A stretch of 64,000 nucleotides of DNA from positions 1-64,000 of the forward strand of contig JACRPE010000006.1 in assembly GCA_016214055.1 (NCBI GenBank), written 5' to 3'. The notes beneath the pieces were generated by a model. The model was not told the DNA's origin. It ran no database searches and was given only the letters and a program-made list of their open reading frames with translations. Below are positions 7,494-63,701 of this stretch, in pieces. Made by a program: the position numbers and the translations under genes. This DNA comes from Candidatus Roizmanbacteria bacterium (lineage in GTDB: Bacteria; Patescibacteriota; Microgenomatia; UBA1406; GWC2-37-13). The first letter of the stretch is position 1, and each line of letters opens with the position of its first letter.

Positions 7494-8915
7494 ATGGACG
7501 ATTTGCTAAAATTGAGACAATTACTTCTTCAAAAGGTCACCATCGTCGATCAACCCAAAACAAGGGGGGATCTCTATCAATTCTTGGGGAACACCAAAGA
7601 AGAGCGAGTTGCTAATTTAATGAAAAAGATACTAGGAGACATGGGGACTGAAAACAAAAAAAAGATATTTCAATATATCATCGATTTTTGGGAACGATCT
7701 ACGATTGAAGTGCCATACAAAGCCCCAGAATTCAAAGGTGTCAATCTCGCCAAGCGGCCTTTTTTAGCTCCCACCGGATCAAACGACGGAGAACATTTTG
7801 CCTTCGGAGAACAGTACCGTTGGGATACTTTTTTCCAAAATAGGGGGCTCATTCTGGCTGGAGGATTGGATCTGGCATTGGGTCAGCTGTTAAATCTTAC
7901 TGATGTTTTTGAAGAGTTTAAACGTATTCCTAATGCACTGGTAACTCCTTTTTTATCCCGTCCGCAACCACCTTTTGAAATGGCAGGCCTTATGGATTTG
8001 TTATCTGCAGGATTATCTTTTGACGGACAGGTCTCAAACATAGTAAAAGTAGTTGAGGAAGAGTTAGTCACAGAGTGGTTGGATTATAAATCAGGAAAGC
8101 AAAATCACCGCCAATCGCAGGAAATGGTTGAAAAATACGGCATGCTGACCCGTTATGAACCCCACTCAAACCCATTCATGGTAGGGTGCGAGGACGGGAA
8201 GGATCATAATTGGATTACGGCAACATACAGTTATGAATTTTTGCCGGTACAACTCAACGCAATCCTGTATGGTACGTTCACATCGTTGCAACAGTATTAT
8301 TCATCGCCTGTATGGGGAAACAATACCGAAAAAGCCACATTGTACGACTCATTAAGAAAACAAATGCTTGGAGATTTTCAAAAAACCTTTTGGTGCGACA
8401 CCGGCAAGTGGGCAGGATTCAGGGATTATTCTTTATTGAAAGGAAAAGAAGGCCATATTTTGTATGGAGACCTTTCCGCTGAGATTTTTCCGCTGTTTTT
8501 TAAACTTGCCACGCCCGAGCAGGCAGAAAAAACAAAAATTAATCTTGAAACCTTTTACAAAGGTGATATCGGATTATCATCTACAAGTCTGGAACTAAGA
8601 AATGGGGGAAGTATTCCGCAAGAACCGGTGGGGCCCTGGAAGTTCCAGTGGGAGTACCCGAACTGCTGGCCGCCCCTTATGATGATTGCGGTTGAGGGCT
8701 TAAAAAATTATGGTTTCGTAAAAGAAGCCAGGGGATACGAACAGAACTGGATAACGCATGTCGAAAAAGAATTTGAAAACAGGGGTGGATTCGCGGAAAA
8801 GTACCCTTTTTCAACCCAGACAAAGGTTGAACCGGGGTATTATGGCAATATGAAGGGGTTCGGATGGACGATTGCAACTTATTTAAGCTTCATGAAAGAC
8901 CTGACAGGAGTTTGA
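7494..8915 (+). CDS. GH37 trehalase
   Basis: GEQYRWDTFFQNRGLILAGGL and QWEYPNCWPP match GH37 signatures. Confidence 0.88.
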   Translation: MDDLLKLRQLLLQKVTIVDQPKTRGDLYQFLGNTKEERVANLMKKILGDMGTENKKKIFQYIIDFWERSTIEVPYKAPEFKGVNLAKRPFLAPTGSNDGEHFAFGEQYRWDTFFQNRGLILAGGLDLALGQLLNLTDVFEEFKRIPNALVTPFLSRPQPPFEMAGLMDLLSAGLSFDGQVSNIVKVVEEELVTEWLDYKSGKQNHRQSQEMVEKYGMLTRYEPHSNPFMVGCEDGKDHNWITATYSYEFLPVQLNAILYGTFTSLQQYYSSPVWGNNTEKATLYDSLRKQMLGDFQKTFWCDTGKWAGFRDYSLLKGKEGHILYGDLSAEIFPLFFKLATPEQAEKTKINLETFYKGDIGLSSTSLELRNGGSIPQEPVGPWKFQWEYPNCWPPLMMIAVEGLKNYGFVKEARGYEQNWITHVEKEFENRGGFAEKYPFSTQTKVEPGYYGNMKGFGWTIATYLSFMKDLTGV

Positions 8916-11495: not shown

Positions 11496-12068
11496 TTATG
11501 ATTTTTTCTTTTTCTTGTGATCGAGAATAAGGTGACGAATGAAAGCTGATTTTGTGATACCCTGCTTGGTCGACTCCTCTTCAAGATACGTCAAGAGTGA
11601 TGGGCTAATAAAAAAATTAAAACGTTTATCTGTCACTTGACGTGCGGCAATGAGGGCTTTCGTAATAACTGCGTTAAGATTGTCGGTTTTATATTCGAAT
11701 ACGAGCAATTTATCACTTTGAATTCCAGATATAAAATGGGGAAGATTATCTTTTAAATACAAAACTATTGTTGGCTTATTATATTCAATTGACTTTTCAA
11801 CTTGAAAACCTATTCCTAAGCTGGGAATGGTGCATTCAAACATCGTCAAATCAGCCAATTTTATTCCACTGATTGTTTTAGCAAAAAAGTCCTCATGAGC
11901 TTTTTTCCCACCTTTATTAAGTGTTTCATAGTAATCATCATCGTTAAGTCTTTCAATAAGATTGTCGATGTTTCTATATCCTAGATCTTTAAGCTGAGAA
12001 TCAACAGCGCGGATATATTTTTCAACTGAATCAATTCCCTGTATTGGCGAACTAAAAAATACTTTCAT
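11496..12068 (-). CDS. nucleoside 2-deoxyribosyltransferase-like domain fused to C-terminal ribbon-helix-helix
   Basis: LADLTMFECTIPSLGIGFQVEKSIEYNKPTIVLY; FFISPSLLTYLEEESTKQGITKSAFIRHLI. Confidence 0.65.
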   Translation of the reverse strand: MKVFFSSPIQGIDSVEKYIRAVDSQLKDLGYRNIDNLIERLNDDDYYETLNKGGKKAHEDFFAKTISGIKLADLTMFECTIPSLGIGFQVEKSIEYNKPTIVLYLKDNLPHFISGIQSDKLLVFEYKTDNLNAVITKALIAARQVTDKRFNFFISPSLLTYLEEESTKQGITKSAFIRHLILDHKKKKKS

Positions 12069-49063: not shown

Positions 49064-49976
49064 ATACATGAAACGAAACAATACAATTATGCAACTATCC
49101 TTAGCACTCGCAACTCACAACGAAGAGGCCAATATTGAGGCATGTATAACCTCGTGCAAGGGTTTAGTTGATGAAGTGATAGTAGTGGACGGGTCATCGA
49201 CTGATAAAACGGCCGAACTCGCCCATAAATTGGGTGCACGCGTCCTCATAACCTCCAATCCCTCGATGTTCCATATCAATAAGCAAAAGGCTATCGACGC
49301 CGCAACCGGGGAGTGGATTTTACAGCTTGATGCGGATGAAAGAGTGAGCCCTGAGCTGGCGGAGGAAATAAAAAAAGTAATAAAGATGAGTGAGGGGGAG
49401 TTGGAGGCGTATGAAAAGAATTTGCCGGAAAAGGAATTGTTTGAAAGGCATGAAAATATTGTTATTTCTTCGCAAAACGGAGGCCTGTCTCATCATCTTC
49501 CTTGCCAGGGTTCCTATAATGCTTTTTTCATCCCTCGCCTCAATTTTTTCCTTGGAAAATATTTGCGTTATGGGGGAGTCTATCCCGACGGAGTAATTCG
49601 TCTCTTTAAAAAGGGAAAAGCTCATTTGCCATGTAAAGACGTACATGAAATCATGGAAGTTGAAGGGCGAGTGGGGTGGTTACAGAATCCGTTAAGACAT
49701 ATTGATTCTCCCACATTTAAGCGCTATTTAGAAAGAAATTCCCGTTATATTACTCTTATGGCAGAAGAATTAAGGAATTGTCATCCCGACCGAAGTGGAG
49801 GGATCTCTAACATAAGATTATTTTTCGATTATATGTTTTTAAAGCCCTTCTCCTGGTTTTTCATGACAACCTTTCGTCATAAGGGGATTTTAGATGGTTG
49901 GCAGGGAGTAGTATTCTCATTCTTTTCTGCATTGAGATTCCCGAGAGCTTATTGGAGATCTACGCGCCGATCTTGA
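49059..49976 (+). CDS. GT2-family glycosyltransferase (start probably 49068 or 49089)
   Basis: LSLALATHNEEANIEACITSCKGLVDEVIVVDGSSTDKTAELA. Confidence 0.9.
   Translation: MTYMKRNNTIMQLSLALATHNEEANIEACITSCKGLVDEVIVVDGSSTDKTAELAHKLGARVLITSNPSMFHINKQKAIDAATGEWILQLDADERVSPELAEEIKKVIKMSEGELEAYEKNLPEKELFERHENIVISSQNGGLSHHLPCQGSYNAFFIPRLNFFLGKYLRYGGVYPDGVIRLFKKGKAHLPCKDVHEIMEVEGRVGWLQNPLRHIDSPTFKRYLERNSRYITLMAEELRNCHPDRSGGISNIRLFFDYMFLKPFSWFFMTTFRHKGILDGWQGVVFSFFSALRFPRAYWRSTRRS
49780..49808. repeat. partial GTCATCCCGACCGAAGTGGAGGGATCTCT element in the GT2 gene
   Basis: in-frame CHPDRSGGIS. Confidence 0.7.
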
Positions 49977-51045
49977 ACTCAACCACGTCACCATCCTTCA
50001 TCACATAATCTTTCCCTGCGCTCACCACTTTTCCCACTTCACGGGCTTTGACCCATCCTTCACACTTCACAAAATCATCGTAAGTCACGATGTCTGCTTT
50101 TATAAATTTCTTTTCAAAATCGGTATGAATCGTCCCTGCCGCCTGTGGTGCCGCCCAACCTTTTTGTATGGTCCAAGCTCGAGCTTCAAGCGTCCCCGCG
50201 GTTAAAAATGAAATAAGCCCGAGAGCTTCATACGACTCTTTTATCAGGCGGTTGAGCCCTGTATCGGAAAGTTTATATTGATCCAAGTATTCCTTTTGTT
50301 CGACGGGGGAGAGGGCGAGAATGTCATTCTCAAGCTTTGCGTTAAAGTATAACCAGTTGCCGACCGAAGGGAGGGATTCAATTTGTTTTTTTGTCTCTTC
50401 CTGATTTTCCAGTTGGGATTCGGAGACGTTAAAGGCGTAAATAACCGGTTTAATAGTCAAAAGATTCAAGTCGCGGATGAGTAGGCGTTCCTCATCGGTA
50501 AAAGTCATATTGCGTGCGGATTTGCCTTTATTTAGTTCCTCTTTCAATCGTTTGACGGTTTCCCAACGGGCAAGTTCATCTTTCTCTGCATTCATTCTTG
50601 GCTCTTTCTGCTTGCTCAATGTCTCCAGATCTGCCAAGATGAGTTCAGACTCAATTATCTCAATATCACTTTTCGGGTCGACTTTATTTGCAACATGGAT
50701 GACATTATCATCAATAAAAAGTCGCACTACATGGACGATTGCAGAAACTTCCCGGATATGGGAAAGAAATTTATTCCCCAGTCCTTCGCCGACTGATGCA
50801 CCCTTCACAATCCCAGCAATATCATAAAATTCAACCGCCGCAGGCACGATTTTATCCGTTTTAACAATTTTTGCCAGGACTGGAAGTCGTTCATCCGGAA
50901 CTTCCACGATGCCAATGTTTGGTTCTATGGTGCAAAAGGGATAGTTCGCCGCGTCCGCAACCTGTTTTTTCAGAAGCGCGTTAAACAGCGTTGACTTTCC
51001 AACATTTGGAAGACCGACGATGCCAATTGATAGAACTCTGCCCAT
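49960..51045 (-). CDS. ychF: redox-regulated ATPase/GTP-binding protein YchF, chimeric N-terminus
   Basis: LSIGIVGLPNVGKSTLFNALL, canonical YchF; first codons are element-derived. Confidence 0.95.
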   Translation of the reverse strand: MGRVLSIGIVGLPNVGKSTLFNALLKKQVADAANYPFCTIEPNIGIVEVPDERLPVLAKIVKTDKIVPAAVEFYDIAGIVKGASVGEGLGNKFLSHIREVSAIVHVVRLFIDDNVIHVANKVDPKSDIEIIESELILADLETLSKQKEPRMNAEKDELARWETVKRLKEELNKGKSARNMTFTDEERLLIRDLNLLTIKPVIYAFNVSESQLENQEETKKQIESLPSVGNWLYFNAKLENDILALSPVEQKEYLDQYKLSDTGLNRLIKESYEALGLISFLTAGTLEARAWTIQKGWAAPQAAGTIHTDFEKKFIKADIVTYDDFVKCEGWVKAREVGKVVSAGKDYVMKDGDVVEFKIGA

Positions 51046-52618
51046 AATTGTTTTTTGTGTTTTCTTCTGGAATAACTAACGGTATAGAGCCTTCAACCGA
51101 AGCAATCGCTCCATCCGTGACAACGGTATCAACCAGTTGTCTAACTACATACTGCCGTTCCTTGAAATTCAATTCTTTAATTTCAGCCTTCATTGTATCA
51201 CAGAACTGTCTCAAATCCGGAAGAATTATAGACTTTTGTGCAGGAGGATTGTTGTTTCGGGATGTAGCTAATTTGCTCATAATCTGGCTTTTTTTGAGCT
51301 TAATTTCCATAAACTGTGATTGTAACTGTTCAAGACTAATAACCTTGGCTCCATAAGCTTTAACGAAGCGTTCTTCCTGTTCTTTTAGTTCATTCAGTTC
51401 TTTTTTTAATTTTTCTACATCAATGTAGTCATTGTTATTTTGAATAGTTGCTATTCGCATATTCCACCGGCTATATTGTTTTTCAATTTGTTTGGGGTCA
51501 GTGAGCAAATTATATATTTCATTCCAAACCTTAGTATCAAGAATAGTGGCGCTTACTCCGGGGACGAAGCATTCTTTAGGTAGGGGAAAGCGATTCACTC
51601 GATCGGTGCAACGATAGTACAAATGACTTTTCACTCCTTCACCGGCTCGGGTATTTCCACAGGTACACTTGACGAGTGTTGATAATAAATATTCATGTAC
51701 TTTGTTTCTCATGCAGAATTGAGAGTTTGTTTTTAGTTGTTGTTGAGCCCTAATGAATGTGTCTTCATCAATAATTGTTGGTACTGAAATTGGGCACCAT
51801 TCTTCCGGTGGTCTATTTTTTCTGCTCGTTTTTTTTATTTTTCTATACCCATCTTTTTTACGAGGATTAATAGATTCTACAGCAACTCTTTTGTTGAAGT
51901 AGGTTTTTCCAATGTACGTTTCATCCCGAAGTAATCTTGAAAGAGTGCTGGTTGACCAATAACCTTTTTTATTTTTTCTTGGTAATATTTTCTGTTCAAA
52001 TAATCTCGATATAACTTTACGAATTGTCATCTGCTCATCAACAAACCACTTGAAAATCATTTTTACAATTTCCGCTTCTTCTTTGACAACTTCAAAAGAT
52101 CCAGGGATAGTTTTTTTATCTCCTTTGATATATCTATATCCGTAGGGAGCATTCCAGCCAAATAAAATACCATTCCTTGCTTTATATAACTTTCCTCTCC
52201 GAAATCTTTCGGCAATTTTTATTCGTTCATAATCATGAAAAAGCCCCATTACATTTTGGGCAAATCCGGACTCTGGGGTTTCGTTGTTGATATCATGGAG
52301 CGATACTATCTTAATGCCAGCGTCTTCAATTTCTTTTTTTAAAATTAACTGATTGAGAAAGTCACGAGAAAGACGGCCTAAGTCATAAACATATAAAACT
52401 TGGAATAATTTGCTTTTAACAGCGTCCCTTAATCGGTCTAATTCCGGTCTGGCAAGGACACTTCCGGTCCAGCCTTCATCACCGAAGGAAAGGTTATTTC
52501 CGAGCATCAAACCATCTTTTGAAATGCGTTCTTTTATCTCGGCAACTTGAGAAAGAATGGTTTCCTGTTTCTCCTGATTTCCTGTTGAAACGCGGGCGTA
52601 TAAAGCGGCTATTTTCAC
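50981..52618 (-). CDS. large serine recombinase/integrase
   Basis: LYARVSTGNQEKQ, YVYDLGRLSRD, recombinase and zinc-ribbon domains; 3' end runs into ychF. Confidence 0.93.
   Translation of the reverse strand: MKIAALYARVSTGNQEKQETILSQVAEIKERISKDGLMLGNNLSFGDEGWTGSVLARPELDRLRDAVKSKLFQVLYVYDLGRLSRDFLNQLILKKEIEDAGIKIVSLHDINNETPESGFAQNVMGLFHDYERIKIAERFRRGKLYKARNGILFGWNAPYGYRYIKGDKKTIPGSFEVVKEEAEIVKMIFKWFVDEQMTIRKVISRLFEQKILPRKNKKGYWSTSTLSRLLRDETYIGKTYFNKRVAVESINPRKKDGYRKIKKTSRKNRPPEEWCPISVPTIIDEDTFIRAQQQLKTNSQFCMRNKVHEYLLSTLVKCTCGNTRAGEGVKSHLYYRCTDRVNRFPLPKECFVPGVSATILDTKVWNEIYNLLTDPKQIEKQYSRWNMRIATIQNNNDYIDVEKLKKELNELKEQEERFVKAYGAKVISLEQLQSQFMEIKLKKSQIMSKLATSRNNNPPAQKSIILPDLRQFCDTMKAEIKELNFKERQYVVRQLVDTVVTDGAIASVEGSIPLVIPEENTKNNYGQSSINWHRRSSKCWKVNAV
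51013..51045 (-). other. left attachment junction
   Basis: minus: ATGGGCAGAGTTCTATCAATTGG|CATCGTCGG. Confidence 0.75.
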
Positions 52619-52830
52619 GGCTTCACCCTCCTATCGTTCAAAAACTTTTCGAACTCGCTTTTCTTGACTCTGTACTCTTTACCGAGCGAGTATGCCGGTA
52701 ATTTTCCTTTGATTACCCAACGCCGAACTGTGAGTATATGTACCCTTAAAATTGAAGCTATTTCTTTTAATAACATATATTTTTCCATATCTTTACATTT
52801 TATTATAGATAACAATAAATAACATAGCAA
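52615..52830 (-). CDS. excisionase-like HTH protein
   Basis: LLKEIASILRVHILTVRRWVIKGKLPAYSLGKEYRVKKSEFEKFL. Confidence 0.85.
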   Translation of the reverse strand: MLCYLLLSIIKCKDMEKYMLLKEIASILRVHILTVRRWVIKGKLPAYSLGKEYRVKKSEFEKFLNDRRVKP

Positions 52831-52842
52831 GAGTTATTTCAT

Positions 52843-53106
52843 TTATTCTCTCTTTACAATTTCCCTGACAATGGAATCGATTTCAGCTTGTGGTAATAAT
52901 CTAAATTTATCCGTTGTCGTAATCGAATCAAATTTGAACTGGACGATATAAGACTTATTAACACAATTGCCATCCTCAAGCTCAATAAACTGACTTTTCG
53001 ACATTAAGATATTCTTTTTTGTTTCTCCGTTAACAAGATGTTCCCATTTATTAGACAAAACAAGAAAATAATATTTATATCTCTCCGGTAGTTCCGTTGG
53101 GTTCAT
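52843..53106 (-). CDS. hypothetical protein
   Basis: ORF in element operon. Confidence 0.6.
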   Translation of the reverse strand: MNPTELPERYKYYFLVLSNKWEHLVNGETKKNILMSKSQFIELEDGNCVNKSYIVQFKFDSITTTDKFRLLPQAEIDSIVREIVKRE

Positions 53107-53879
53107 ACTTTTGTAACACCTCCTTTTTGATCCTTGTTTTCTTCCTGCTTTAAATAAAGAAGCAGCTTTCCCATTTTTAGTTCTAATTCATATGGCGTGG
53201 TTATCCGGGGAGCATAGGGTCTGCTAACTATTTCGTGCAGATGGCTTATAAGGTTAAACATCCTATCTTCCCCATACCTGGCAATCATTCGCTCAAGGGC
53301 GGCTCTTTCCGTCATATTGGCAAATAAGCGCTCGTAAGAAGGATTAACTTTTGAAAATAAATAAAGCAATTTATTTATAGAGGGTTCACTCTTTATTATT
53401 TCTTTATTAACTGTATTGTCTTTATCCTTATATGTCTTTCTGCTGCTTTTCTGTTGTATAGTCTGGTGTAAGGTTTGCTGTTCATTATTTTGAAGTAGTT
53501 CCTTTATTTTGCCCATATTGACAATCTGAAGTATTGTTCTTCTGTTGTCCATCGTGATGATTAAAATTGATTGTTTTTTCTCTAGAACATTTATAAAGTT
53601 TTTTACCCAGGCCCTGCTTCTTTTCCATTTTCTTGCGAGAGTGACGACTGAAGTAAGGATCTGGGCATATTTAATTGGGATAAGTTCATCCCTATTCCAT
53701 ATTTCTTCTGTTTCGGTCCCGTATCGTGCCATAAAGAGAAGATCGATCCATGCTTCTGCCCGGGAATACTTTCTTCTTTCCGTCCAAAAAGAATCCTGCT
53801 GGAATTTCCGAAGTAGGGGAATAGCTCCGCCAAATTTATATTTTGTTTGATTTTGTTTGTACTCGTCCTCCATGTTCAT
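53103..53879 (-). CDS. phage replisome-organizer/DnaD-like protein
   Basis: RKYSRAEAWIDLLFMARY...ARKWKRSRAWVKNFINVLEKKQ wHTH-like arrangement. Confidence 0.5.
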   Translation of the reverse strand: MNMEDEYKQNQTKYKFGGAIPLLRKFQQDSFWTERRKYSRAEAWIDLLFMARYGTETEEIWNRDELIPIKYAQILTSVVTLARKWKRSRAWVKNFINVLEKKQSILIITMDNRRTILQIVNMGKIKELLQNNEQQTLHQTIQQKSSRKTYKDKDNTVNKEIIKSEPSINKLLYLFSKVNPSYERLFANMTERAALERMIARYGEDRMFNLISHLHEIVSRPYAPRITTPYELELKMGKLLLYLKQEENKDQKGGVTKV

Positions 53880-53997
53880 TTAGTTTTTTTATAACTTTAT
53901 CAAAAATCATGTCATATACTCGGTTGAGTCTTTCCGTCTCATTTTTACCGTTCCATTTATAGGAAACCTCTAAAATGGTACGGACTTTTCTTGCCAT
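53836..53997 (-). CDS. small protein (53 aa)
   Basis: MARKVRTILEVSYKWNGKNETERLNRVYDMIFDKVIKKLNEHGG...; overlaps the start of the next gene. Confidence 0.45.
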   Translation of the reverse strand: MARKVRTILEVSYKWNGKNETERLNRVYDMIFDKVIKKLNEHGGRVQTKSNKI

Positions 53998-53998
53998 A

Positions 53999-54235
53999 TT
54001 AGATTCCCGAATGTATTCTTGTTTTAAGCTGATTTATTGCTTCAACAAGTTCTAAACTAATAACTTTTAATTCTTTGTTCCAGTGTTTTTGAATAGTTGT
54101 TTCGGCAATTTGGTCGGGATTTGCGAATACGAACGTAACTTTTCCGTTACTGTTGCGGATGAGATTTTGTAATTGAAGTCCGGCTGATTTTAGAACACAG
54201 GAAATGTAAAAGTCTTGGGTGGAAAATGTGTTCAT
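53999..54235 (-). CDS. small hypothetical (DUF5659-like)
   Basis: FSTQDFYISCVLKSAGLQLQNLIRNSNGKVTFVFAN. Confidence 0.5.
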   Translation of the reverse strand: MNTFSTQDFYISCVLKSAGLQLQNLIRNSNGKVTFVFANPDQIAETTIQKHWNKELKVISLELVEAINQLKTRIHSGI

Positions 54236-54236
54236 A

Positions 54237-54461
54237 TTATTTTTTAACTACATAAAGATCAGGATTTTTTTGTTTCAATTTTTCGATAAGAACGTATAGG
54301 CCTTCTAGTTTTTTTGGCCTTAAATTCCATAAAGGGCAACCGGGGATTTCGCAAAGGAGAATTTCTTTAGACTGACAACAGGTGCAGTCCAGGCATTTCA
54401 TGAAAATAGATTGGCGGAGACTTTTCATTTCCTTTTTAAGAGCGATCTTTTGAGTTTTCAT
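54237..54461 (-). CDS. small Cys-cluster protein
   Basis: CLDCTCCQSKEILLCEIPGCPLWNLRP. Confidence 0.6.
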   Translation of the reverse strand: MKTQKIALKKEMKSLRQSIFMKCLDCTCCQSKEILLCEIPGCPLWNLRPKKLEGLYVLIEKLKQKNPDLYVVKK

Positions 54462-54579
54462 AGATTTTTATATTTTTTCATCTTTTTAGTTTTCACTTTA
54501 GGCGATTAAATTAGAGCCTTTCAATAGAGGAAAGTAAGGGGCTAATTGTGGGAGTTGTTAGGGGAAGTATTGCGGGAGT

Positions 54580-55677
54580 TTATGAAGAGATTGTTAATAC
54601 AAGATATTCTTTCGTATTAATGCGAATTTGTCTTATCTTTTTATTTTTAAAATTTTCTTTAAGTTTATTGATGGTTCGTCTGACGCCGGCATTTGTTTCC
54701 CAGCGTTTCGGATTAGTTCTGTCTTTGATTTCACTGCCAACTTTGTACATTTCCTCGTAGGCTATCTTTTTGCCGTAATTTTTGCATAGGTGCTTAAAAT
54801 ATAAATAGGTGTTGGAAGTCATACGGGAAAAAGTAAAAAGATTTTTATTGCCATGATAAATGTAAGCTTTATATTCTTTTTCCACTAAACGCCAATTTTT
54901 AGTGATAGAAATTATTTTTGTTGCTCCGCTTATATTATTCTCATCTATCTGCTTATTTTCTTTTTTGTTATCCAAAAGCTCTATTTCTACATGGCAATGC
55001 TCGGCCGGGTAATAATAATCGTCGTAGATTGGATTGATATCATTATAATCTGAAGAAACGGTTTTAAAGAATTTTCTATTGGCATCAAAGTTAAAATCAA
55101 GGCCGAGAATTTTAATAAACTTTTCCCGTTCGAGCTGAAATAGGGTTGTCATGAACTTAATGTGAAGATCAGGATTATCATCATAAGAATAATGTTCGAC
55201 GTCGATTGGTTTGGCAATAAAAGTGCCAAGATCTCTTTCCGATAGTTCAAGTTCGCGGGACCTGGAATTTTGTACTTTCTCAATAATTATTTTCCGAACA
55301 ATCTTTTCCTGTTGGATTGATCCATAAGGTTCTTTAGCTTCAAAGTCATGATAAAAGCCGGCAAAGTTATGGAGTTTTGTCCAGTCAACCGAGACAGTAA
55401 AGTCATGTAAACACCAGGCAGGCCGACTCATATTCATCCGGTCTTCATCAGTAATAGTTAAGGCACCATATTTAACAAATTTATCAATCGTAGATAATTT
55501 TTCAATGCCACAAAAACATTCCTGGGATTCGACAAATGCCCGGGCATATTCCGAATCGGTATGGGCTATATTGATGACGTTAACAGGATAAGCAAATCCG
55601 CCATATATTTGGCTTAATAAACCAATCTCATCTTTTATTCCTAAATCCGCCCAAGAGGAACTGATTTTTATTTTCAT
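54580..55677 (-). CDS. hypothetical element protein, possible replication initiator-like
   Basis: ORF 365 aa; operon position. Confidence 0.5.
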   Translation of the reverse strand: MKIKISSSWADLGIKDEIGLLSQIYGGFAYPVNVINIAHTDSEYARAFVESQECFCGIEKLSTIDKFVKYGALTITDEDRMNMSRPAWCLHDFTVSVDWTKLHNFAGFYHDFEAKEPYGSIQQEKIVRKIIIEKVQNSRSRELELSERDLGTFIAKPIDVEHYSYDDNPDLHIKFMTTLFQLEREKFIKILGLDFNFDANRKFFKTVSSDYNDINPIYDDYYYPAEHCHVEIELLDNKKENKQIDENNISGATKIISITKNWRLVEKEYKAYIYHGNKNLFTFSRMTSNTYLYFKHLCKNYGKKIAYEEMYKVGSEIKDRTNPKRWETNAGVRRTINKLKENFKNKKIRQIRINTKEYLVLTISS

Positions 55678-55712
55678 ATTAATTTACATCTTTAAATTCA
55701 TTTTATCAGAGA

Positions 55713-55931
55713 TTAGATACTCTTTAAAAGCCGCCAAAGTTCAAGATTTAATCCCCGGCTTATTTTTAACAACACTTTTAAGCTGGGATTAGTTTTTCCC
55801 TCCTCTATTTCTGCCATGTATGAACGGTCAATATTGGCTTCAAATGCTAAATTCTCTTGTGATAGATCTCTCTCCTTTCTTATTCTTGATATTTCCCTTC
55901 CTAACCTTCTGAAAATGTATTGGTATTTCAT
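55713..55931 (-). CDS. XRE-family HTH regulator
   Basis: REISRIRKERDLSQENLAFEANIDRSYMAEIEEGKTNPSLKVLLKIS. Confidence 0.88.
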   Translation of the reverse strand: MKYQYIFRRLGREISRIRKERDLSQENLAFEANIDRSYMAEIEEGKTNPSLKVLLKISRGLNLELWRLLKSI

Positions 55932-56773
55932 ATGGAGAGAAAGGGTAGAAGAAGATCAGATAAAACACAATGAAATCAAATTCAACCAACCGCGAAACCT
56001 ATTCAATCCAAATCCTGCCACACCTTGACAACACCAACACAATAACAAAACTGTCAACCGGTAAGAAAACCAATCAAGAATGAAAAGGCTGTCAAAAAAC
56101 AACTTTATGAACAAACAACCAAAATCGAAAGAGAAGGATCAATAAAGAACCATAAATTTGAAATAATCTACATTTCTTACGCACACAAAATGAAGAAATT
56201 CTTTGAGAACTATAAAAGCAGTACCTTCCATCGGAAAAAGAATAAAGTCATTAAATTTTGACAGTATTACTCTTGAGAAAATATCAAGTTTATAGAAAAA
56301 AATATCAATCAGAATAATTGTTGCAAAAGTCAACCGCCAACTATTGCCCCTCGTAAAGTTGGGTAATGATTTCAAAGGCTATCTGTCGGGGTGTTAAAGA
56401 AAAAATAACTAATGAGCCCAAATGCCCGTGTTTGAATGGCTTAAACGGTGTGATCAAATGAACCCGGGCCTCACCTTCGGTCAATACCAAAAACAAATCA
56501 TTCCGCTACATTCACCAATGTTGCAAGCCCATCACTGCCGTGCCTTCTTAAGGTTGGTCAATAATAAGAAAAGCCACACTACATTGTCTTTTTCTTCTAA
56601 TAGGCTATCGTCTGTGTGCTTGATTGCGAGCAATCTTCCCTTCGGGTTTGTTCGGGCAAGTAGTCAGCCCTCCGCTCAAAACGGAGTCCTCCTTCACCAT
56701 CTCCTCCATTTTTCGCTTCGGGCTGTTTTCTCTCGGAACGTAGGGAAAAAAAAGGTACAAGACAGATATAATC

Positions 56774-57043
56774 GGTCATCGTAAAAAGATTTTTTACGAC
56801 GCTCAATATTGTTTTTTCCCTACTGGTCATCGCAAAATAGCTAATTTTACGACGCCCTCCTTCGAGAAAAGGAAGTCAGTTTCTGCTCCTCATTCTTCGG
56901 AGCAGACTTGCCCTCACAATATAAGTGATTTTTTGATAAGCAAAAAATCACTTGCGGTTATCTGCGTTTCCACTAATAAGAGAATTCCGTTCACGATTTT
57001 ATAATTCGTTTGTCGAGCCTTCGTGAACGGTGTGGAAACGCAG
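56774..57043. other. hairpin-dense non-coding region (element core)
   Basis: several perfect inverted repeats, listed in findings. Confidence 0.7.
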
Positions 57044-57501
57044 CACCGCACTAACCGGCCACGATCAAAAAGCGACCAAAAAGCAAACAAATTACAAAAC
57101 AAAAAACAAGGGAGAAATACGTTCGGTTTTACAGTCGGCAGCCTTCTTAGGGTTTATTTGTTCTGTCCTTGATTCCAATTATAAGGGCAAAAAAGGTTTG
57201 TCAAAAGGTGGGTATTTAGCCTGTAGAAATATCCTCGTATTGAACATTTTAATAAACAAACCATTTCTCGGATATTTCTGACAGGCGTAAATATCCTTTT
57301 TTCTTTCTCTATACTTCGGAAAAAACTTTTGACAATCGGAAAATCTTTTAAATGAACACCTTAATTTTTTTTCAAAAAATATAGACGATTTTCCTACCTT
57401 TTTTTAGCCCTTTACCCATTGTAACCGCTTTATCAGTCTCGGAGATTGTCTATCTGCACGAAGTCACTTAATAAAAATCGAAGGACAGAACAAATTATCC
57501 A

Positions 57502-57732
57502 TTGATTATCAGTTTTCTGTTTTTCAAAAGACTTATGTTCAAGACTTTTTTGGCTGACTTGATCATGATTCCGGCAATGATTTTCATTGTTTCCAGATTT
57601 TCACACAAGAAGAAAGAACCGGAATGGGTTGAACTGAATCGCTTTCGAGCTTACTTAAGGACACCTGAATTTATGAAGAGACGAGACAAGTTATTCGAAA
57701 CCAGTTTGAAAGGAGGTGATAACCATGACTAA
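57502..57732 (+). CDS. small membrane protein
   Basis: hydrophobic ORF. Confidence 0.45.
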   Translation: MIISFLFFKRLMFKTFLADLIMIPAMIFIVSRFSHKKKEPEWVELNRFRAYLRTPEFMKRRDKLFETSLKGGDNHD

Positions 57733-57871
57733 GCTACAAAAAGCGTTAAAAGAGATTGATGAAGTTTTATCCTCTCCTTCAACAGTCACTGATGAAGAAA
57801 TTGCAAAGTATCAGGAGGACGTTGAAGCATATTACGCTGAAAATTACGAACTTGCTTCTGAAACTTGTTAA
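57725..57871 (+). CDS. small acidic protein (48 aa)
   Basis: AGGAGGTGATAACC-ATG strong SD; MTKLQKALKEIDEVLSSPSTVTDEEIAKYQEDVEAYYAENYELASETC; terminator follows. Confidence 0.6.
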   Translation: MTKLQKALKEIDEVLSSPSTVTDEEIAKYQEDVEAYYAENYELASETC

Positions 57872-57887
57872 TGGTTGGTTACGTTTA

Positions 57888-57917
57888 AATAGGCTCGGGA
57901 AACCGGGCCTATTTTTT
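57888..57917 (+). terminator. intrinsic terminator
   Basis: AATAGGCTCGG gaaa CCGGGCCTATT TTTT. Confidence 0.75.
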
Positions 57918-57942
57918 ATTAGTTTCATTACTTTTTAATCTT

Positions 57943-58359
57943 ATGATTATTCATTTGAAGGATTTAACCAAGATTGTTTCCGAGCCAAAGGCGATTTGGA
58001 ATATAATCAAAGATCTTTTGGAAGCAGAAGATGAAATTGATCGAGACAAAGAGCATCTCTGGGTTTTTCATCTCAATTCGAGAAACCAGATCAAGTTGAT
58101 AGAATTGGTTAGCCTGGGAATTTTAAATTCTTCACTGATTCATCCTCGGGAAGTGTTTACTCGAGCAGTCGGGGAGAGAGCAGCTCAGATTATCATTGCT
58201 CATAACCATCCGTCAGGTGAAGTAACGCCTTCGGAAGATGATCTTGTCATCACTAAAAGACTGGTTAAGGCGGGTGAGATATTAGGGATCGAGTTGATCG
58301 ATCATCTGGTAGTTACTACCAATGGTTTTACCAGTTTCAAGAAAAATGGCTTAATCTGA
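57943..58359 (+). CDS. RadC-like JAB domain protein
   Basis: AQIIIAHNHPSGEVTPSEDDLVITKRLVKAGEILGIELIDHLVV. Confidence 0.92.
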   Translation: MIIHLKDLTKIVSEPKAIWNIIKDLLEAEDEIDRDKEHLWVFHLNSRNQIKLIELVSLGILNSSLIHPREVFTRAVGERAAQIIIAHNHPSGEVTPSEDDLVITKRLVKAGEILGIELIDHLVVTTNGFTSFKKNGLI

Positions 58360-58378
58360 TTATTATAAATTTTAAACT

Positions 58379-58423
58379 AGCCGTTGGAGTGAGTTTTCTA
58401 AACTTGCTCCGGCGGCTTTTTTT
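58379..58423 (+). terminator. intrinsic terminator
   Basis: AGCCGTTGGAG...CTCCGGCGGCTTTTTTT. Confidence 0.75.
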
Positions 58424-58514
58424 ATAGTCCTTAGTTTTTTAATTAGGTTTAATTAAAGGCCGGTTCATTAGTCTACGTGGTATTAGAAACTTCATTTTGC
58501 TATACTGAAATGGA

Positions 58515-58991
58515 ATGAGTAATGATACAAAAAGTAAAAATAATTCCTGGTTTAGTTGGTTTTTGTGGTGGAAAATTGACTCCAGCACCTTAGAAAAACA
58601 GATTCAACAATATAAGTCGCTCAAAATATATGAATCCTACAGGGGTATAGCCGCACTTCTTATTACAAGTAGAATATTATTATCAGGACTAGTTTTCTTA
58701 ATACAGTGGGTACCCAATAACAACTTTATAATCAGTTTTCTCCGTAGAGATTTTGGCTTGGGTGGCCTGCTCTTTTATCTGTTTTTGGCACTTTTCGTTT
58801 TTAAGGGTAAAAAATGGGCATTACTTATCATGATGGTTATAGAAACTATCAATAGTGGATTTTCCCTTTTTCGTTCATCATCTTTGGAAGGTGCTTTTTG
58901 GTTAATGATTATCTTTTGGTGGGTTCTATTTATGAAATATCTTTATGGTGCTTATATCGTAGAGCAGAAACTAAATAAGAATGAAAAGTAA
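58515..58991 (+). CDS. membrane protein
   Basis: 3-4 TM segments. Confidence 0.65.
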   Translation: MSNDTKSKNNSWFSWFLWWKIDSSTLEKQIQQYKSLKIYESYRGIAALLITSRILLSGLVFLIQWVPNNNFIISFLRRDFGLGGLLFYLFLALFVFKGKKWALLIMMVIETINSGFSLFRSSSLEGAFWLMIIFWWVLFMKYLYGAYIVEQKLNKNEK

Positions 58992-59496
58992 GAATATTAA
59001 AGATGGACACGAAATCTCAACATGTAAGCGATTCCTATCTCTTTACAACAATAAAGACAATAAAAGTCTTAATTCAATAAGACAGGGAGATCCTCAAAAT
59101 AAAGAACCCGATTGCATCTGTGGTGAAGATTTAGCAATTGAATTAGTAGGAGTATACGATAACAAGTATCAAGCAGAAAAAATGTGGTCTACGGCACGTA
59201 ATAAAACTGTTTCTCGACAACCTGATTTGCAACTTCTTACACTTAAGAATTTAGAAAACGAAATAGGAAAAAAATTACAAAAATTAAATTTAGGAAATTA
59301 CAATGGTTTTTCTGGTAAACTAATTCTAGTATGTAATCTGTTAAGTCCGCTTATTGATAGCGAAGAGGTAGAGCAATACATTAAAAATTATGTTCCCTTT
59401 CGCAGTGATGGACATTTTGATAAATATTTTTATGAGATTTGGATTTCTTGGCAACCTAATGGTGAAACAAATTGGAAAATTAAAAAGTTGAAATAA
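58981..59496 (+). CDS. hypothetical protein, possibly PD-(D/E)xK-like
   Basis: KEPDCICGEDLAIELVGVYDNKYQAEKMW. Confidence 0.55.
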   Translation: MKSKNIKDGHEISTCKRFLSLYNNKDNKSLNSIRQGDPQNKEPDCICGEDLAIELVGVYDNKYQAEKMWSTARNKTVSRQPDLQLLTLKNLENEIGKKLQKLNLGNYNGFSGKLILVCNLLSPLIDSEEVEQYIKNYVPFRSDGHFDKYFYEIWISWQPNGETNWKIKKLK

Positions 59497-59502
59497 ATAA
59501 AT

Positions 59503-59868
59503 ATGTTACTAAAAAAAACTTACCAGTTTTTACAGTCAAAACTTGGGCTAATTATAATCGTTGTCTTATTTTTTATACTGGCTATTCCATTAACAACTTC
59601 AGTAAATACCATATTGGGAGCAGTAGGAGAGCAAATAGGTAAATTAATTTCTCCTCTGGTAATCGTTCTTGTTCTATCGCGATTTTACAAATGGAGTCGA
59701 AATCAAAAGATATTGCATATTTTCTTTATAGCTTTTGTGTTTGGATTTATGATGTCACAAAAGTCTCTTATGCCTATAGTCAATTTTGTTTCAATACTTG
59801 CTCTACTCACTTTAATAGTCCAAATTATTCTCGAGGCATTCAAGAAGAAACCAGCTAAAGATAAATGA
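59503..59868 (+). CDS. small membrane protein
   Basis: hydrophobic ORF. Confidence 0.55.
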   Translation: MLLKKTYQFLQSKLGLIIIVVLFFILAIPLTTSVNTILGAVGEQIGKLISPLVIVLVLSRFYKWSRNQKILHIFFIAFVFGFMMSQKSLMPIVNFVSILALLTLIVQIILEAFKKKPAKDK

Positions 59869-59991
59869 TATGTAATTCTATTGGCGTCTTACGATTTTTA
59901 TTGCATTATCAACCATTAATTTGTCGTTTAAAAGAAGTATTCCTTTAAGAAATCGTTTTTAAATAAAAAAAGACATCTAAAAATATTTTGT

Positions 59992-60003
59992 TATACTATT
60001 TCT
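59992..60003 (+). promoter_or_regulatory. TATACT-N6-ATG
   Basis: element cargo gene. Confidence 0.55.
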
Positions 60004-60687
60004 ATGACAACGGATAACTCAAAGAAAGAAACATCATCATATTCATACGAAGATCCAACATCTGGAGCAAATATTTTTACTGGCTCAATAACTGACCCAG
60101 AAGAGGCTGATAAGTGGGATAAAGCATTTTTTGGGGGAAAATTGAATTTAAAAAAAGAAATGGAAGAAGAAAATAGACCTAAAAACTTCTTTGAAAAATA
60201 TTCCATATTTTTCTTTTTATTAGGGGGAATGGCTTTAATTTTTATTTTATTTTACGGCATGAGTGCGGCGGCGTGGAAAGAAGGAAACTGCTTACTCCTT
60301 GTTCCATATTTTTCCCATTCAACGAATCAAACATGTTCGGGATTAAATAGTGTTTTTTCAAATGCTATATATTTATTTATAGTTTTTTTTATATGGGTTT
60401 TTTTCAGTTCTTTAAGGCAACCAAAAAAAATACTTGATTTCATGGATAATAAAACATTTAATTTGCTCAAGAAAGAGTTTTATGAAACTGAAAGTTCCAC
60501 TTTGGGAGAAGCACAAAAAAAATATTCAGTTGAAAACATACCCTCTGATACTCCGGAATATAAACAACAGTTTGATAAACAAACACAGTATAGGAATCAA
60601 TTAAGAGGAAAATCTGCAACGGAACTGAGAGCTAAATATAAACTAACAATTGAGGAGTGGAAGAAATTTCTGGGTAAGGCGATATAA
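60004..60687 (+). CDS. membrane protein
   Basis: two TM segments; TATACT-N6-ATG. Confidence 0.65.
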   Translation: MTTDNSKKETSSYSYEDPTSGANIFTGSITDPEEADKWDKAFFGGKLNLKKEMEEENRPKNFFEKYSIFFFLLGGMALIFILFYGMSAAAWKEGNCLLLVPYFSHSTNQTCSGLNSVFSNAIYLFIVFFIWVFFSSLRQPKKILDFMDNKTFNLLKKEFYETESSTLGEAQKKYSVENIPSDTPEYKQQFDKQTQYRNQLRGKSATELRAKYKLTIEEWKKFLGKAI

Positions 60688-60719
60688 ATATAGATAATAT
60701 TAGATGTAATTTCTTACAT

Positions 60720-61325
60720 ATGAATAAATCAATAATAATAACCATAATAATCACTGCATTAATTTCAAGTTTAATAACATTTACTTTTACAAAAAAATCA
60801 ATTCAAAAAGGCAAATTGTGGACTAATACACAATCAAAGAATGATTATAAAAGTGCTATTACTATAACACCGACAGAAAAGCCTATTCTAAAATATTCAG
60901 TCACTATACTTAATACTCCAGTAATTAATGGAATCTTTAATCTTAAAGCTGATATAAAAAATATCTCTGTGAACCCTTTTATGACTGGGATCTACTTCAG
61001 GGAATGTAAATTCATTGATGAAAAAGGTAACGAATATAAGGGTAATTTAGATTCTCCTATGGGTGGTTATGGTATTGAGTCTAATTTCTCGAAATCCCTT
61101 CTCCCTGGTGAGAATCGTACTGTGGATTTTAATAATCTTAATATAGAGGTACTTGGCGGTGGTGGTATTGATCGTTCCGGAAGTATCAAAGATAGATGCG
61201 ATTATAATAATCAAGGTAATAAAGTATGCAATCCAATTAATGGACTTAAAATAAAAGAATGTACTACTTATACTTCAACAGGCATTAAACATGAAGATCA
61301 ATTACCTCTGGTGGTTAGTTTTTGA
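60720..61325 (+). CDS. membrane-anchored extracytoplasmic protein
   Basis: N-terminal TM; beta-rich remainder. Confidence 0.6.
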   Translation: MNKSIIITIIITALISSLITFTFTKKSIQKGKLWTNTQSKNDYKSAITITPTEKPILKYSVTILNTPVINGIFNLKADIKNISVNPFMTGIYFRECKFIDEKGNEYKGNLDSPMGGYGIESNFSKSLLPGENRTVDFNNLNIEVLGGGGIDRSGSIKDRCDYNNQGNKVCNPINGLKIKECTTYTSTGIKHEDQLPLVVSF

Positions 61326-61539
61326 CAATGATCAAATATAATATCAATCCTTGCGGGTATAGATTCATAAAGGTTGAGCGTAAATAATCCTTCCTAAATT
61401 GTTTCTCTCTAATATTTTTCTTGCTTTTCTGGGGTGGGGGAAGTGTGTCTAAAATGGAATCATTAATTGATGAATTCTTAACTACTTGCAATTGTTTTCA
61501 CTATTTAGTATACTTTCACTGTTTAGTGAAAATACCTAT

Positions 61540-62607
61540 ATGAGTGAAAATACGCTAATAAATCAGCTTCCAGGCAGCATTCCCGAGGGTTTAACCCTTG
61601 AGGGTCTTAACGTGCTTCCAATGGGTAAATCCGGACCGGACCTCCAGGGAATTCTTAAAACCCCAAATGGAGAGTTTCCAATCGCTATTGAAGTTAAAAA
61701 TACCGGTGGAACAGCCACTTTTAGAGAAGCTGCCCGCCAAGTTAAAGCATATGCCTCTCAAGGCGGAGCTGTACCATTTGTAGCAGGACAATTTTTTGGT
61801 AAAGCAGCTCGACAAGTTGCCAAGGAAGAAGGCGTAGGAATAATGGATTTGGCCGGTAATTTCTACCTCAAGAAAGATGATGTGTATATTGAAAAAATTG
61901 TTGAGAAAAATCCTTTTGTTCAAAAAATCCCTCTTAAAAACCTTTTTGCCCCTATTTCGAGTAGGATCACCCGCGTTCTTCTTGTTCAACCTAAAAAAAC
62001 TTGGTTACTAGGGGAGTTGTCTAAAGAAGCCAATGTTAGTTTGGGACAAACATACAAAACCATTGACCGAATGATTGAAGAAGAGATAGTTGAGCGGAAT
62101 CAGAAAAATAAGCTCGTCTTAAAGAGTCCTAGTAAACTCCTGGAAGCATGGAAAAATATATATCCCTCGTATGCTCAGCAAAAGTTCACCTTTTTTAGCT
62201 TTGAACAAAATACCACAACGCTTCTTACTTCTGCCTTGGAAAAGGCGGAAGATTTACCTTTTGCCTTATCGTTCTTTAGTGGAGCCGATCTGGTTGCGCC
62301 ATTTATAAGAGGCGTTACAAAATTACAGTTTTATATAAAGCAACTAAGTGATTTAGATCGCTGGAAAAAGCTTTTAGATCTTAAAGAGGTTGTAGACGGA
62401 GCTAATGTTGAACTTTATATTCCTTATGATGAAGGCGTATTTTACCAGATGCAAAAAATTTCCACCTCTTTTGCAAAAGCCTTGCCTGCCGGCAGGCAGG
62501 AAGTTCCGGTTGTATCGAACATTCAACTTTATATGGATTTGTTTAATAATCCTGCTCGTGGGGCGGAACAAGCAGAACACTTACGAGAAATAAAGTTGGG
62601 TTTTTAA
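61540..62607 (+). CDS. AbiEi-like type IV antitoxin (nuclease-like N-domain plus wHTH)
   Basis: FPIAIEVKNTGGTATFREAARQVKAYA; KKTWLLGELSKEANVSLGQTYKTIDRMIEEEIV; followed by NTase. Confidence 0.65.
   Translation: MSENTLINQLPGSIPEGLTLEGLNVLPMGKSGPDLQGILKTPNGEFPIAIEVKNTGGTATFREAARQVKAYASQGGAVPFVAGQFFGKAARQVAKEEGVGIMDLAGNFYLKKDDVYIEKIVEKNPFVQKIPLKNLFAPISSRITRVLLVQPKKTWLLGELSKEANVSLGQTYKTIDRMIEEEIVERNQKNKLVLKSPSKLLEAWKNIYPSYAQQKFTFFSFEQNTTTLLTSALEKAEDLPFALSFFSGADLVAPFIRGVTKLQFYIKQLSDLDRWKKLLDLKEVVDGANVELYIPYDEGVFYQMQKISTSFAKALPAGRQEVPVVSNIQLYMDLFNNPARGAEQAEHLREIKLGF
62481..62500. repeat. TGCCTGCCGGCAGGCA palindrome in frame in the AbiEi gene
   Basis: encodes LPAGRQ. Confidence 0.85.
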
Positions 62608-62616
62608 CGTTCAACT

Positions 62617-63528
62617 ATGACGCAAACCAAATATGATCGAACCAAAACCACGTTTGTCTCAAATATAGCCGACGTTTCATTGTCGTATCTGCTTGAACTC
62701 ATGATTGCCCTTGGGTCATATCGTGAAGGATTAGTGCTGGTTGGTGGTTGGGTTCCTTATCTTTTGCTCAAACAATACCAGCCGGCCGGTGTAGCTTTTC
62801 GGCATGTTGGCTCAAAAGATATTGATATTGCCGTTAATCCCAAACTAATTGACAAACAGGGCTATTCTTCAATTTTGGAAATACTTAAGGAGCGAGGTTA
62901 TGAACCAAAACTGGATGTAAAAGGAAAACCAATCCAATACTCATTTGTGAAAAATGTAACAACAAGTAAAGGAAAAGAACAAATCCAAATTGATTTTCTG
63001 GGACCTGAATATGGTGGGACACAAAAAAGCAAACGTCATCAGCGTATTCAGGAAGATTTTCTTGTCAGAAAAGCCAGAGGGGCTGATGTGATGTTTGACC
63101 ACGCTATTGACATTACTCTTAAGGGAAAGTTACCGGATGGAGCTGAAGGCAAAACCAATATCAAGATGGCGGACATTGTGGGGATTATGACGATGAAGGG
63201 GATTGTGATAGGTTCTCGTTATAGACAAAAAGATGCCTATGACATTCACAGTTTAGTGTTGTATTACAAATCCGGTCCTTATACGGTCGCCGAAGAAATC
63301 CGTCCTTTTCGAGAACATGGTTTGATCAAGGAAGCAATTGAATCGATCCATGATAAGTTTCGTTCGCGAGAAGCTGAGGGGCCGGGTTGGGTAGCTGATT
63401 TTCAAGAGGCAGTCGGTGAACTTAGGGAACAGATCAAGACCCAGGCTTACCTCCAAGTTCAGCGATTCCTTACCGCTTTATACGAACCTCCTAAATCTCC
63501 TAAGAAAGAGATAAAAATTAACCACTAA
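62617..63528 (+). CDS. AbiEii-like nucleotidyltransferase toxin
   Basis: LVLVGGWVPYLL...VGSKDIDIAVNPKL NTase motif. Confidence 0.65.
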   Translation: MTQTKYDRTKTTFVSNIADVSLSYLLELMIALGSYREGLVLVGGWVPYLLLKQYQPAGVAFRHVGSKDIDIAVNPKLIDKQGYSSILEILKERGYEPKLDVKGKPIQYSFVKNVTTSKGKEQIQIDFLGPEYGGTQKSKRHQRIQEDFLVRKARGADVMFDHAIDITLKGKLPDGAEGKTNIKMADIVGIMTMKGIVIGSRYRQKDAYDIHSLVLYYKSGPYTVAEEIRPFREHGLIKEAIESIHDKFRSREAEGPGWVADFQEAVGELREQIKTQAYLQVQRFLTALYEPPKSPKKEIKINH

Positions 63529-63660
63529 TTATAGTTGGATTTGAGGAGGTTTTGAATGTACTATCTCTCCGGCAATATTTCTTTCAGTAATGATTCTTGC
63601 CTTTCTGGGGTGGGGAAGTGCTATTTTTATGAGGAATGGGAGGCTATTGTTATGTGTTGA

Positions 63661-63701
63661 GTTCCACCTGTACCTATTGAGAGTTTCATAAGGGTATTAT
63701 A
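63661..63701 (-). other. right attachment junction with stranded native ychF promoter and first codons
   Basis: minus: TATAATACCCTTATGAAACTCTCAATAGG|TACAGGTGGAAC. Confidence 0.8.
63690..63701 (-). promoter_or_regulatory. stranded native ychF promoter: TATAAT-N6-ATG
   Basis: followed by MKLSIG codons. Confidence 0.75.

Follow-up and report, generated by a model that had tools for sequence, protein, structure and literature searches.

The question raised by this locus is how a conserved protein-coding gene, ychF, can serve as an integration site and still be left intact. The locus lies in a window of 64,000 nucleotides (contig JACRPE010000006.1, positions 1 to 64,000), which is part of a 1.2-Mb Candidatus Roizmanbacteria assembly. 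Very probably, the window carries a 12,650-bp integrative mobile element that belongs to a family found across Patescibacteria, is inserted in ychF at the GG of codon 6 (Gly6), and brings with it both a replacement start for ychF and an in-frame tail of its own integrase. The boundaries, the GG core, its recurrence in the family, the replacement start and the conserved in-frame tail are read directly from the sequence.

Boundaries of the element in ychF

The features that define the insertion are listed below.

49960..51045, minus strand: ychF, intact, with the start MGRVLSIG; its first 7 codons come from the element (TIGR00092, E=4.4e-131)
50981..52618, minus strand: large serine integrase, 545 amino acids when integrated; its last 13 codons lie within ychF in another frame
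51023..51024, minus strand: GG core at the integrase/ychF junction (attR), bases 1-2 of the ychF Gly codon
51025..63674, minus strand: integrated element, 12,650 bp with one GG copy counted (from the junction reads)
61365..61445, minus strand: second, relic integrase tail (HFPHPRKARKILERNNLGRIIYAQPL, then stop; tail profile E=2.8e-8)
63529..63672, minus strand: detached C-terminal tail of the integrase, 47 codons plus TAA, in the integrase frame once the GG ends are joined
63673..63674, minus strand: GG core at the far junction (attL)
63673..63701, minus strand: stranded native 5' end of ychF, consisting of TATAAT, 6 nt, ATGAAACTCTCAATA and GG; the layout matches element-free relatives

At the far junction, the minus strand from 63701 to 63673 reads TATAATACCCTTATGAAACTCTCAATAGG and then TACAGGTGGAACTC. 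At the ychF-side junction, the same strand from 51045 to 51013 reads ATGGGCAGAGTTCTATCAATTGG and then CATCGTCGGTCTTCC. Both agree base for base with the junctions given in the initial annotation. The length of 12.65 kb proposed there also holds (12,650 bp from GG to GG), but its coordinates, 51023-63674, include both copies of GG. The outer halves joined give the predicted empty site (attB), ATGAAACTCTCAATA-GG-CATCGTCGG, where the residues M1 K2 L3 S4 I5 G6 place the insertion in codon 6, as claimed. The inner halves joined give the predicted circle junction (attP), GAGTTCTATCAATT-GG-TACAGGTGGAACTC, with the circular junction sequence GAGTTCTATCAATTGGTACAGGTGGAAC. The core and both sites are thus the same as those rebuilt earlier from the window, and independent elements in other Patescibacteria use the same GG in the same codon. 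The best dyad of the reconstructed attP is centered exactly at GG (15 of 25 positions; runner-up, 11; shuffle p=0.001), again as first described, and two loci with a continuous, unintegrated attP have the dyad at GG or its equivalent.

The pattern formed by TATAAT, ATG and MKLSI-GG, when up to 3 mismatches are allowed, matches the window once and none of 100 shuffles. The G+C content is 29-40% within the element and 42-51% in the left (ychF-side) flank. In related genomes that lack the integrase, YchF starts with MKLSIG, MNLSIG or similar residues and never with MGRVLSIG. The starts of these relatives stand behind a TATAAT box, and by this comparison MGRVLSIG is not native. The element-free relatives keep the genes downstream of ychF in the window (glycosyltransferase and peptide deformylase) in synteny without the insert, and the genes at 52-63.6 kb are missing there, so that this segment is not conserved backbone. 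ychF is single-copy in the genome; the sole other match, a 39% partial one on contig 4, is probably a related GTPase.

A TATAAT-like box (up to 1 mismatch) lies 5-9 nt ahead of the ATG in 22 of 24 native ychF starts, a layout that would be expected of a leaderless mRNA. This layout is not special to ychF, because an exact TATAAT at the same distance from an in-frame ATG is found for 4 of 42 long open reading frames in the window (control, 0). In L068 (G020), the 5' end of ychF is duplicated (positions 7773 and 7915), with a promoter and a MKLSIGIVGLPNVG fragment 142 bp ahead of the full gene.

The integrase has a Resolvase domain (PF00239, E=3.3e-26) followed by a Recombinase domain (PF07508, E=3.9e-21), which confirms its earlier identification as a serine integrase. 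Four zinc-ribbon cysteines (C318, C320, C337 and C350) follow the Recombinase domain and are invariant across 7 relatives.

The element could be dead, that is, an accreted and immobile remnant of several insertions. The relic tail at 61445-61365 within the element points to an earlier insertion stacked at this position, and the relatives L065, L067 and L074 are decayed. We regard a dead element as possible but rather unlikely, as the integrase is full length with intact serine-recombinase motifs, and its helix-turn-helix partner, the replication gene and the outer att sites are also intact. Tail profiles detect at least two tails in L116, L101, L067 and L102 as well. From these sequences, codon 6 of ychF appears to accumulate insertions, and part of the 12.65 kb, including an AbiE-like gene pair, may come from a second element.

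The tails are at positions 1138, 3925 and 4769 in L116, 1065 and 1836 in L101, 8481 and 12052 in L067, and 808 and 2723 in L102. Several of those in the multi-tail loci sit behind a promoter and a start-like sequence, as by repeated insertion at ychF. The AbiE-like pair of the window is located between its two tails. At position 621 in L021 (G023), a tail lies behind a promoter and a MANLSVG start about 0.9 kb before ychF, where the integrase is gone and a small remnant is left.

The integrase tail and the replacement start of ychF

The integrase reads through GG without a stop in 34 of 37 elements, and its frame relative to ychF is always the same. The overlap in the integrated state alone proves little, because ychF itself is conserved. 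When the near and far halves are joined as in the circle, however, the integrase becomes longer by 30-76 residues, and 12 of 14 reconstructed circles have the added tail in frame with the enzyme. One group of tails shares the motif PF.x.K..LP.PRK.R.I.ERD.LGRI, and a second group shares LPFELK..MP.TDRG.RGYSDEY. The catalytic domain covers residues 4-150, and the core follows residue 532. In L107, which is not in ychF, the integrase is one continuous frame of 603 amino acids, with a tail 76% identical over 41 amino acids to that predicted for L136. The tail profiles also match further copies beside ychF-like starts in L066, L021 and L123, all loci outside the profile set. Differences between tails are distributed over the three codon positions as 51/39/79 (p=6e-4; four independent pairs pooled). 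They are concentrated at third positions, and therefore the tail is under selection as a protein.

Alternatively, the far end of the element might hold a small gene of its own, or a frame open by chance, and the tail would then not belong to the integrase. The stretch from the core to the conserved motif is variable in sequence, L066 and L091 have no full in-frame tail, and the tail is matched by no family (none in Pfam). We consider this improbable in view of the shared frame in the circles, the uninterrupted frame of L107, the third-position pattern and the fact that the integrase frame is never closed ahead of the core in the 34 elements. By this reconstruction, attP lies within the coding sequence of the integrase, and integration would part the tail from the rest of the enzyme by 12.6 kb.

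The same site reads into ychF in the other frame. All 38 loci have an in-frame ATG or GTG from the element 24, 21, 15 or 12 nt before GG, and these starts lead into residues resembling those of YchF, for example L-S-I-G. The other, mirrored half of each attP was used as a control, being dyad-matched without coding use; a start with the hydrophobic pattern is found in 17/17 near half-sites vs 1/17 mirrored far half-sites (p=1.5e-8). Just ahead of the start, a -10 box with up to 1 mismatch is found in 1 of 38 element-supplied starts vs the 22 of 24 native ones. Even the decayed elements L065 and L067 retain the element-supplied start. In L065 (G012), the element is reduced to a 3' piece of the integrase gene next to a RadC gene, and ychF still starts with MSRVLSIG.

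The start codons might instead have been created once the element was in place, through mutation or repair of the junction, and the varying distance from start to GG would fit such an origin. This explanation is very improbable and is in fact ruled out by two unintegrated sites: the whole attP of L107 and that of L113, both away from ychF, already code MLSIG and MSNCSLTVG, respectively. Because these sites already code it, the ychF start is brought in and not gained later. Related elements in different genomes also have the same start (MSSSNLSIG in L085 and L086). Across these loci, the predicted element-side half of attP supplies the ychF start as a general rule.

L107 was considered as a free plasmid or phage and rejected, since tRNA synthetase, pilus and other chromosomal genes are found on its contig, the ends of which do not overlap; by this gene content, it is a chromosomal locus with an intact predicted attP. 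Two attP-like sites, one with GC for GG, lie about 80 bp apart at ~11580-11690 of this contig, off ychF, and a further copy in that genome sits in ychF (L104). The intact attP of L113 (~11570-11630) has a near-perfect dyad (20/25) and lies beside an integrase of the same clade in a 4.2-Mb genome named Bacteroidetes.

Several points weigh against an integrative element with these properties. All contigs are assemblies, mostly metagenomic, and the circle is known by reconstruction only. The attP dyad is without significance in 5 of 17 sites, and the half-site counts take related elements as independent. The integrase of L066 stops 42 bp ahead of the core, though a tail is present at the far end, and the tail of L091 is short. 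The element promoter and the lack of a terminator, described below, rest on consensus scans.

Recurrence across Patescibacteria and a proposed mechanism

In the integrase tree, a single clade of 58 rows (SH-aLRT 98) contains all 51 rows adjoining ychF; some rows are one genome taken from two collections. Integrases of this clade are directly upstream of ychF and overlap it in many Patescibacteria, and the nearest named kin of the window integrase are from Candidatus Roizmanbacteria. Fourteen elements with both ends readable are 5.2-14.4 kb long and have GG in the same codon in all cases, most with the dyad centered on it, and their joined outer halves give a normal YchF start in 14/14. Over 320 kb, the far-junction pattern matches the expected strand 14 times and the opposite one 0 times, vs 0.6 matches in shuffles. 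In near pairs, the integrase side is closer than the ychF side (92% vs 79% identity for L085/L086; 83% vs 75% for the window and G012), as expected if the elements move between hosts. The cargo differs by element; replication proteins are common, and Shedu, a reverse transcriptase, cation efflux, VKOR and others occur once each.

A resident host integrase that shares an operon with ychF, as the gene order kept across very distant Patescibacteria might suggest, has next to no probability and is ruled out by the element-free relatives and the native start and promoter stranded at the far end of the insert; moreover, the integrase is found at E<=1e-40 in only 22 of 380 genomes of a phylum sample, and both the unlike cargo and the differing identities of the two sides stand against it. 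Same-clade integrases away from ychF are seen in L109/L114 and L111/L163, in which the target specificity has possibly changed.

Two further features of the window are relevant to how an inserted element would be expressed.

52615..52788, minus strand: excisionase-family helix-turn-helix protein (MEKYMLLKEIASIL...), candidate directionality factor (TIGR01764 above cut-off; phrog_66 excisionase)
52802..52830, minus strand: promoter-like TTGCTA-17-TATAAT ahead of the helix-turn-helix, integrase and ychF run (consensus match only)

The helix-turn-helix gene adjoins the integrase in relatives too, and the GTG start of the integrase overlaps the stop of the preceding gene by 4 bp. A consensus scan of the minus strand between this promoter and ychF found no terminator-like site, and the promoter consensus scan of the window gave about as many sites as shuffles did.

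We propose that a full-length integrase (~579 amino acids) would be made from the circle and would insert the element at the GG dinucleotide of the ychF Gly6 codon. The attP would have three jobs, as the recombination site, as a piece of the integrase coding sequence, and as the ychF start followed by YchF-like codons in the other frame. Integration would strand the ychF promoter and codons 1-5 at the far end, and ychF would be rebuilt on the start of the element as MGRVL-SIG. The integrated integrase would lose its conserved C-terminal tail and end on 13 out-of-frame ychF codons, with its catalytic domain whole. ychF would most likely be the last gene of a helix-turn-helix-integrase-ychF transcription unit and would not be transcribed from a start just ahead of ATGGGCAGA. 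Co-transcription with the integrase is suggested by the uninterrupted series of these genes on the same strand, which has a promoter in front and lacks terminator-like sites, and by the scarcity of -10 boxes at element-supplied starts. We infer an active integrase and expression of ychF from the promoter of the element. Serine integrases generally work in one direction when their directionality factor is absent, so the insert need not be destabilized by steady co-expression with ychF.

It may be guessed that loss of the tail lowers or changes the activity of the integrase after integration. Placing attP in the integrase gene would then act as a switch, in which the circle has the full-length enzyme, the integrated copy has a tail-swapped one of different activity, and ychF is moved from its own leaderless-type promoter into the unit of the element. 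We consider this switch doubtful. YchF inhibits translation of leaderless mRNA in Escherichia coli (PMC8138138); the element would accordingly gain a handle on host translation if a switch of this kind exists.

Comparison with known systems and the remaining genes

Serine integrases that insert into genes are well known. Elements of the TP901-1, phiC31 and Bxb1 type (PHROG 95) share with the window family the Resolvase and Recombinase domains, a 2-bp core at the center of the attP dyad, and attB and attP sites with little sequence in common. Unlike those elements, the window family has its attP within the coding sequence of the integrase, and attP provides the target gene with a replacement start. 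The archaeal 'suicidal' tyrosine integrases of the SSV type (SSV1, pTN3 and pT26-2; PMC8371274) likewise have the recombination site in the integrase gene, which is split on integration. The window family differs in having a serine enzyme and bacterial hosts, and in that the C-terminal tail alone is cut off while the catalytic domain stays whole. According to a 2021 review, recombinases disrupting their own gene, of the tyrosine type, are exclusively archaeal (PMC8371274).

The SpyCI islands in mutL of Streptococcus pyogenes also insert at the 5' end of a housekeeping gene and separate it from its promoter, and one decayed island drives mutL from a promoter inside int (PMC3430984). However, the target gene is switched off in normal SpyCI strains, whereas the window family supplies a new start in every case. 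A pneumococcal prophage between dnaN and ychF has its integrase gene immediately upstream of ychF, and its integration changes ychF expression (PMC6375853). Its att site is a direct repeat upstream of ychF and not in the coding sequence, and the integration sites are unrelated. Several serine integrase lineages share one gene target according to surveys (PMC10083194). The nearest recorded phage integrases are recombinases of Wolbachia phage WO (31-37% identity, compared by sequence only), from other hosts.

The general replacement start, the attP inside the integrase gene with loss of the tail, and the Patescibacteria-wide family go beyond the initial annotation. A search of the open-access literature, with subscription papers and preprints outside its range, found no paper that describes the Patescibacteria family, a target start supplied by attP, or a serine integrase whose coding sequence contains attP. 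The family provides base-level att sites for large serine integrases in a group with few genetic tools. It illustrates that a conserved protein-coding gene is usable as a site without destruction when the missing start is carried inside attP. As a bacterial, serine-type counterpart of the archaeal suicidal integrases, it opens recombination sites within the recombinase's own gene to study beyond archaea.

The remaining assigned features of the window element are as follows.

53103..53879, minus strand: DnaD-like helicase loader, a replication protein (phrog_2514, E=9.3e-12)
53999..54235, minus strand: DUF5659 protein
54580..55677, minus strand: 365-amino-acid protein without a family in Pfam, PHROG and TIGR scans; relatives in a few genomes of the order
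55713..55931, minus strand: XRE-type regulator (HTH_3)
57943..58359, plus strand: RadC-like JAB protein (PF04002, E=3.4e-38)
61486..62607, plus strand: AbiEi-like antitoxin/regulator (PF09952 above cut-off)
62617..63528, plus strand: nucleotidyltransferase, candidate AbiEii partner, whose end adjoins the integrase tail (PF12281, E=6.7e-4, below cut-off)

No relaxase or conjugation family was found among the 17 element proteins scanned. Capsid, portal and terminase had no above-threshold Pfam match in the element, the PHROG scan covering 10 proteins only, and the 365-amino-acid protein has no relatives among viral contigs. A second large serine integrase (L002/L080) is present in the genome of the window, near the end of contig 10 (1292-1558).

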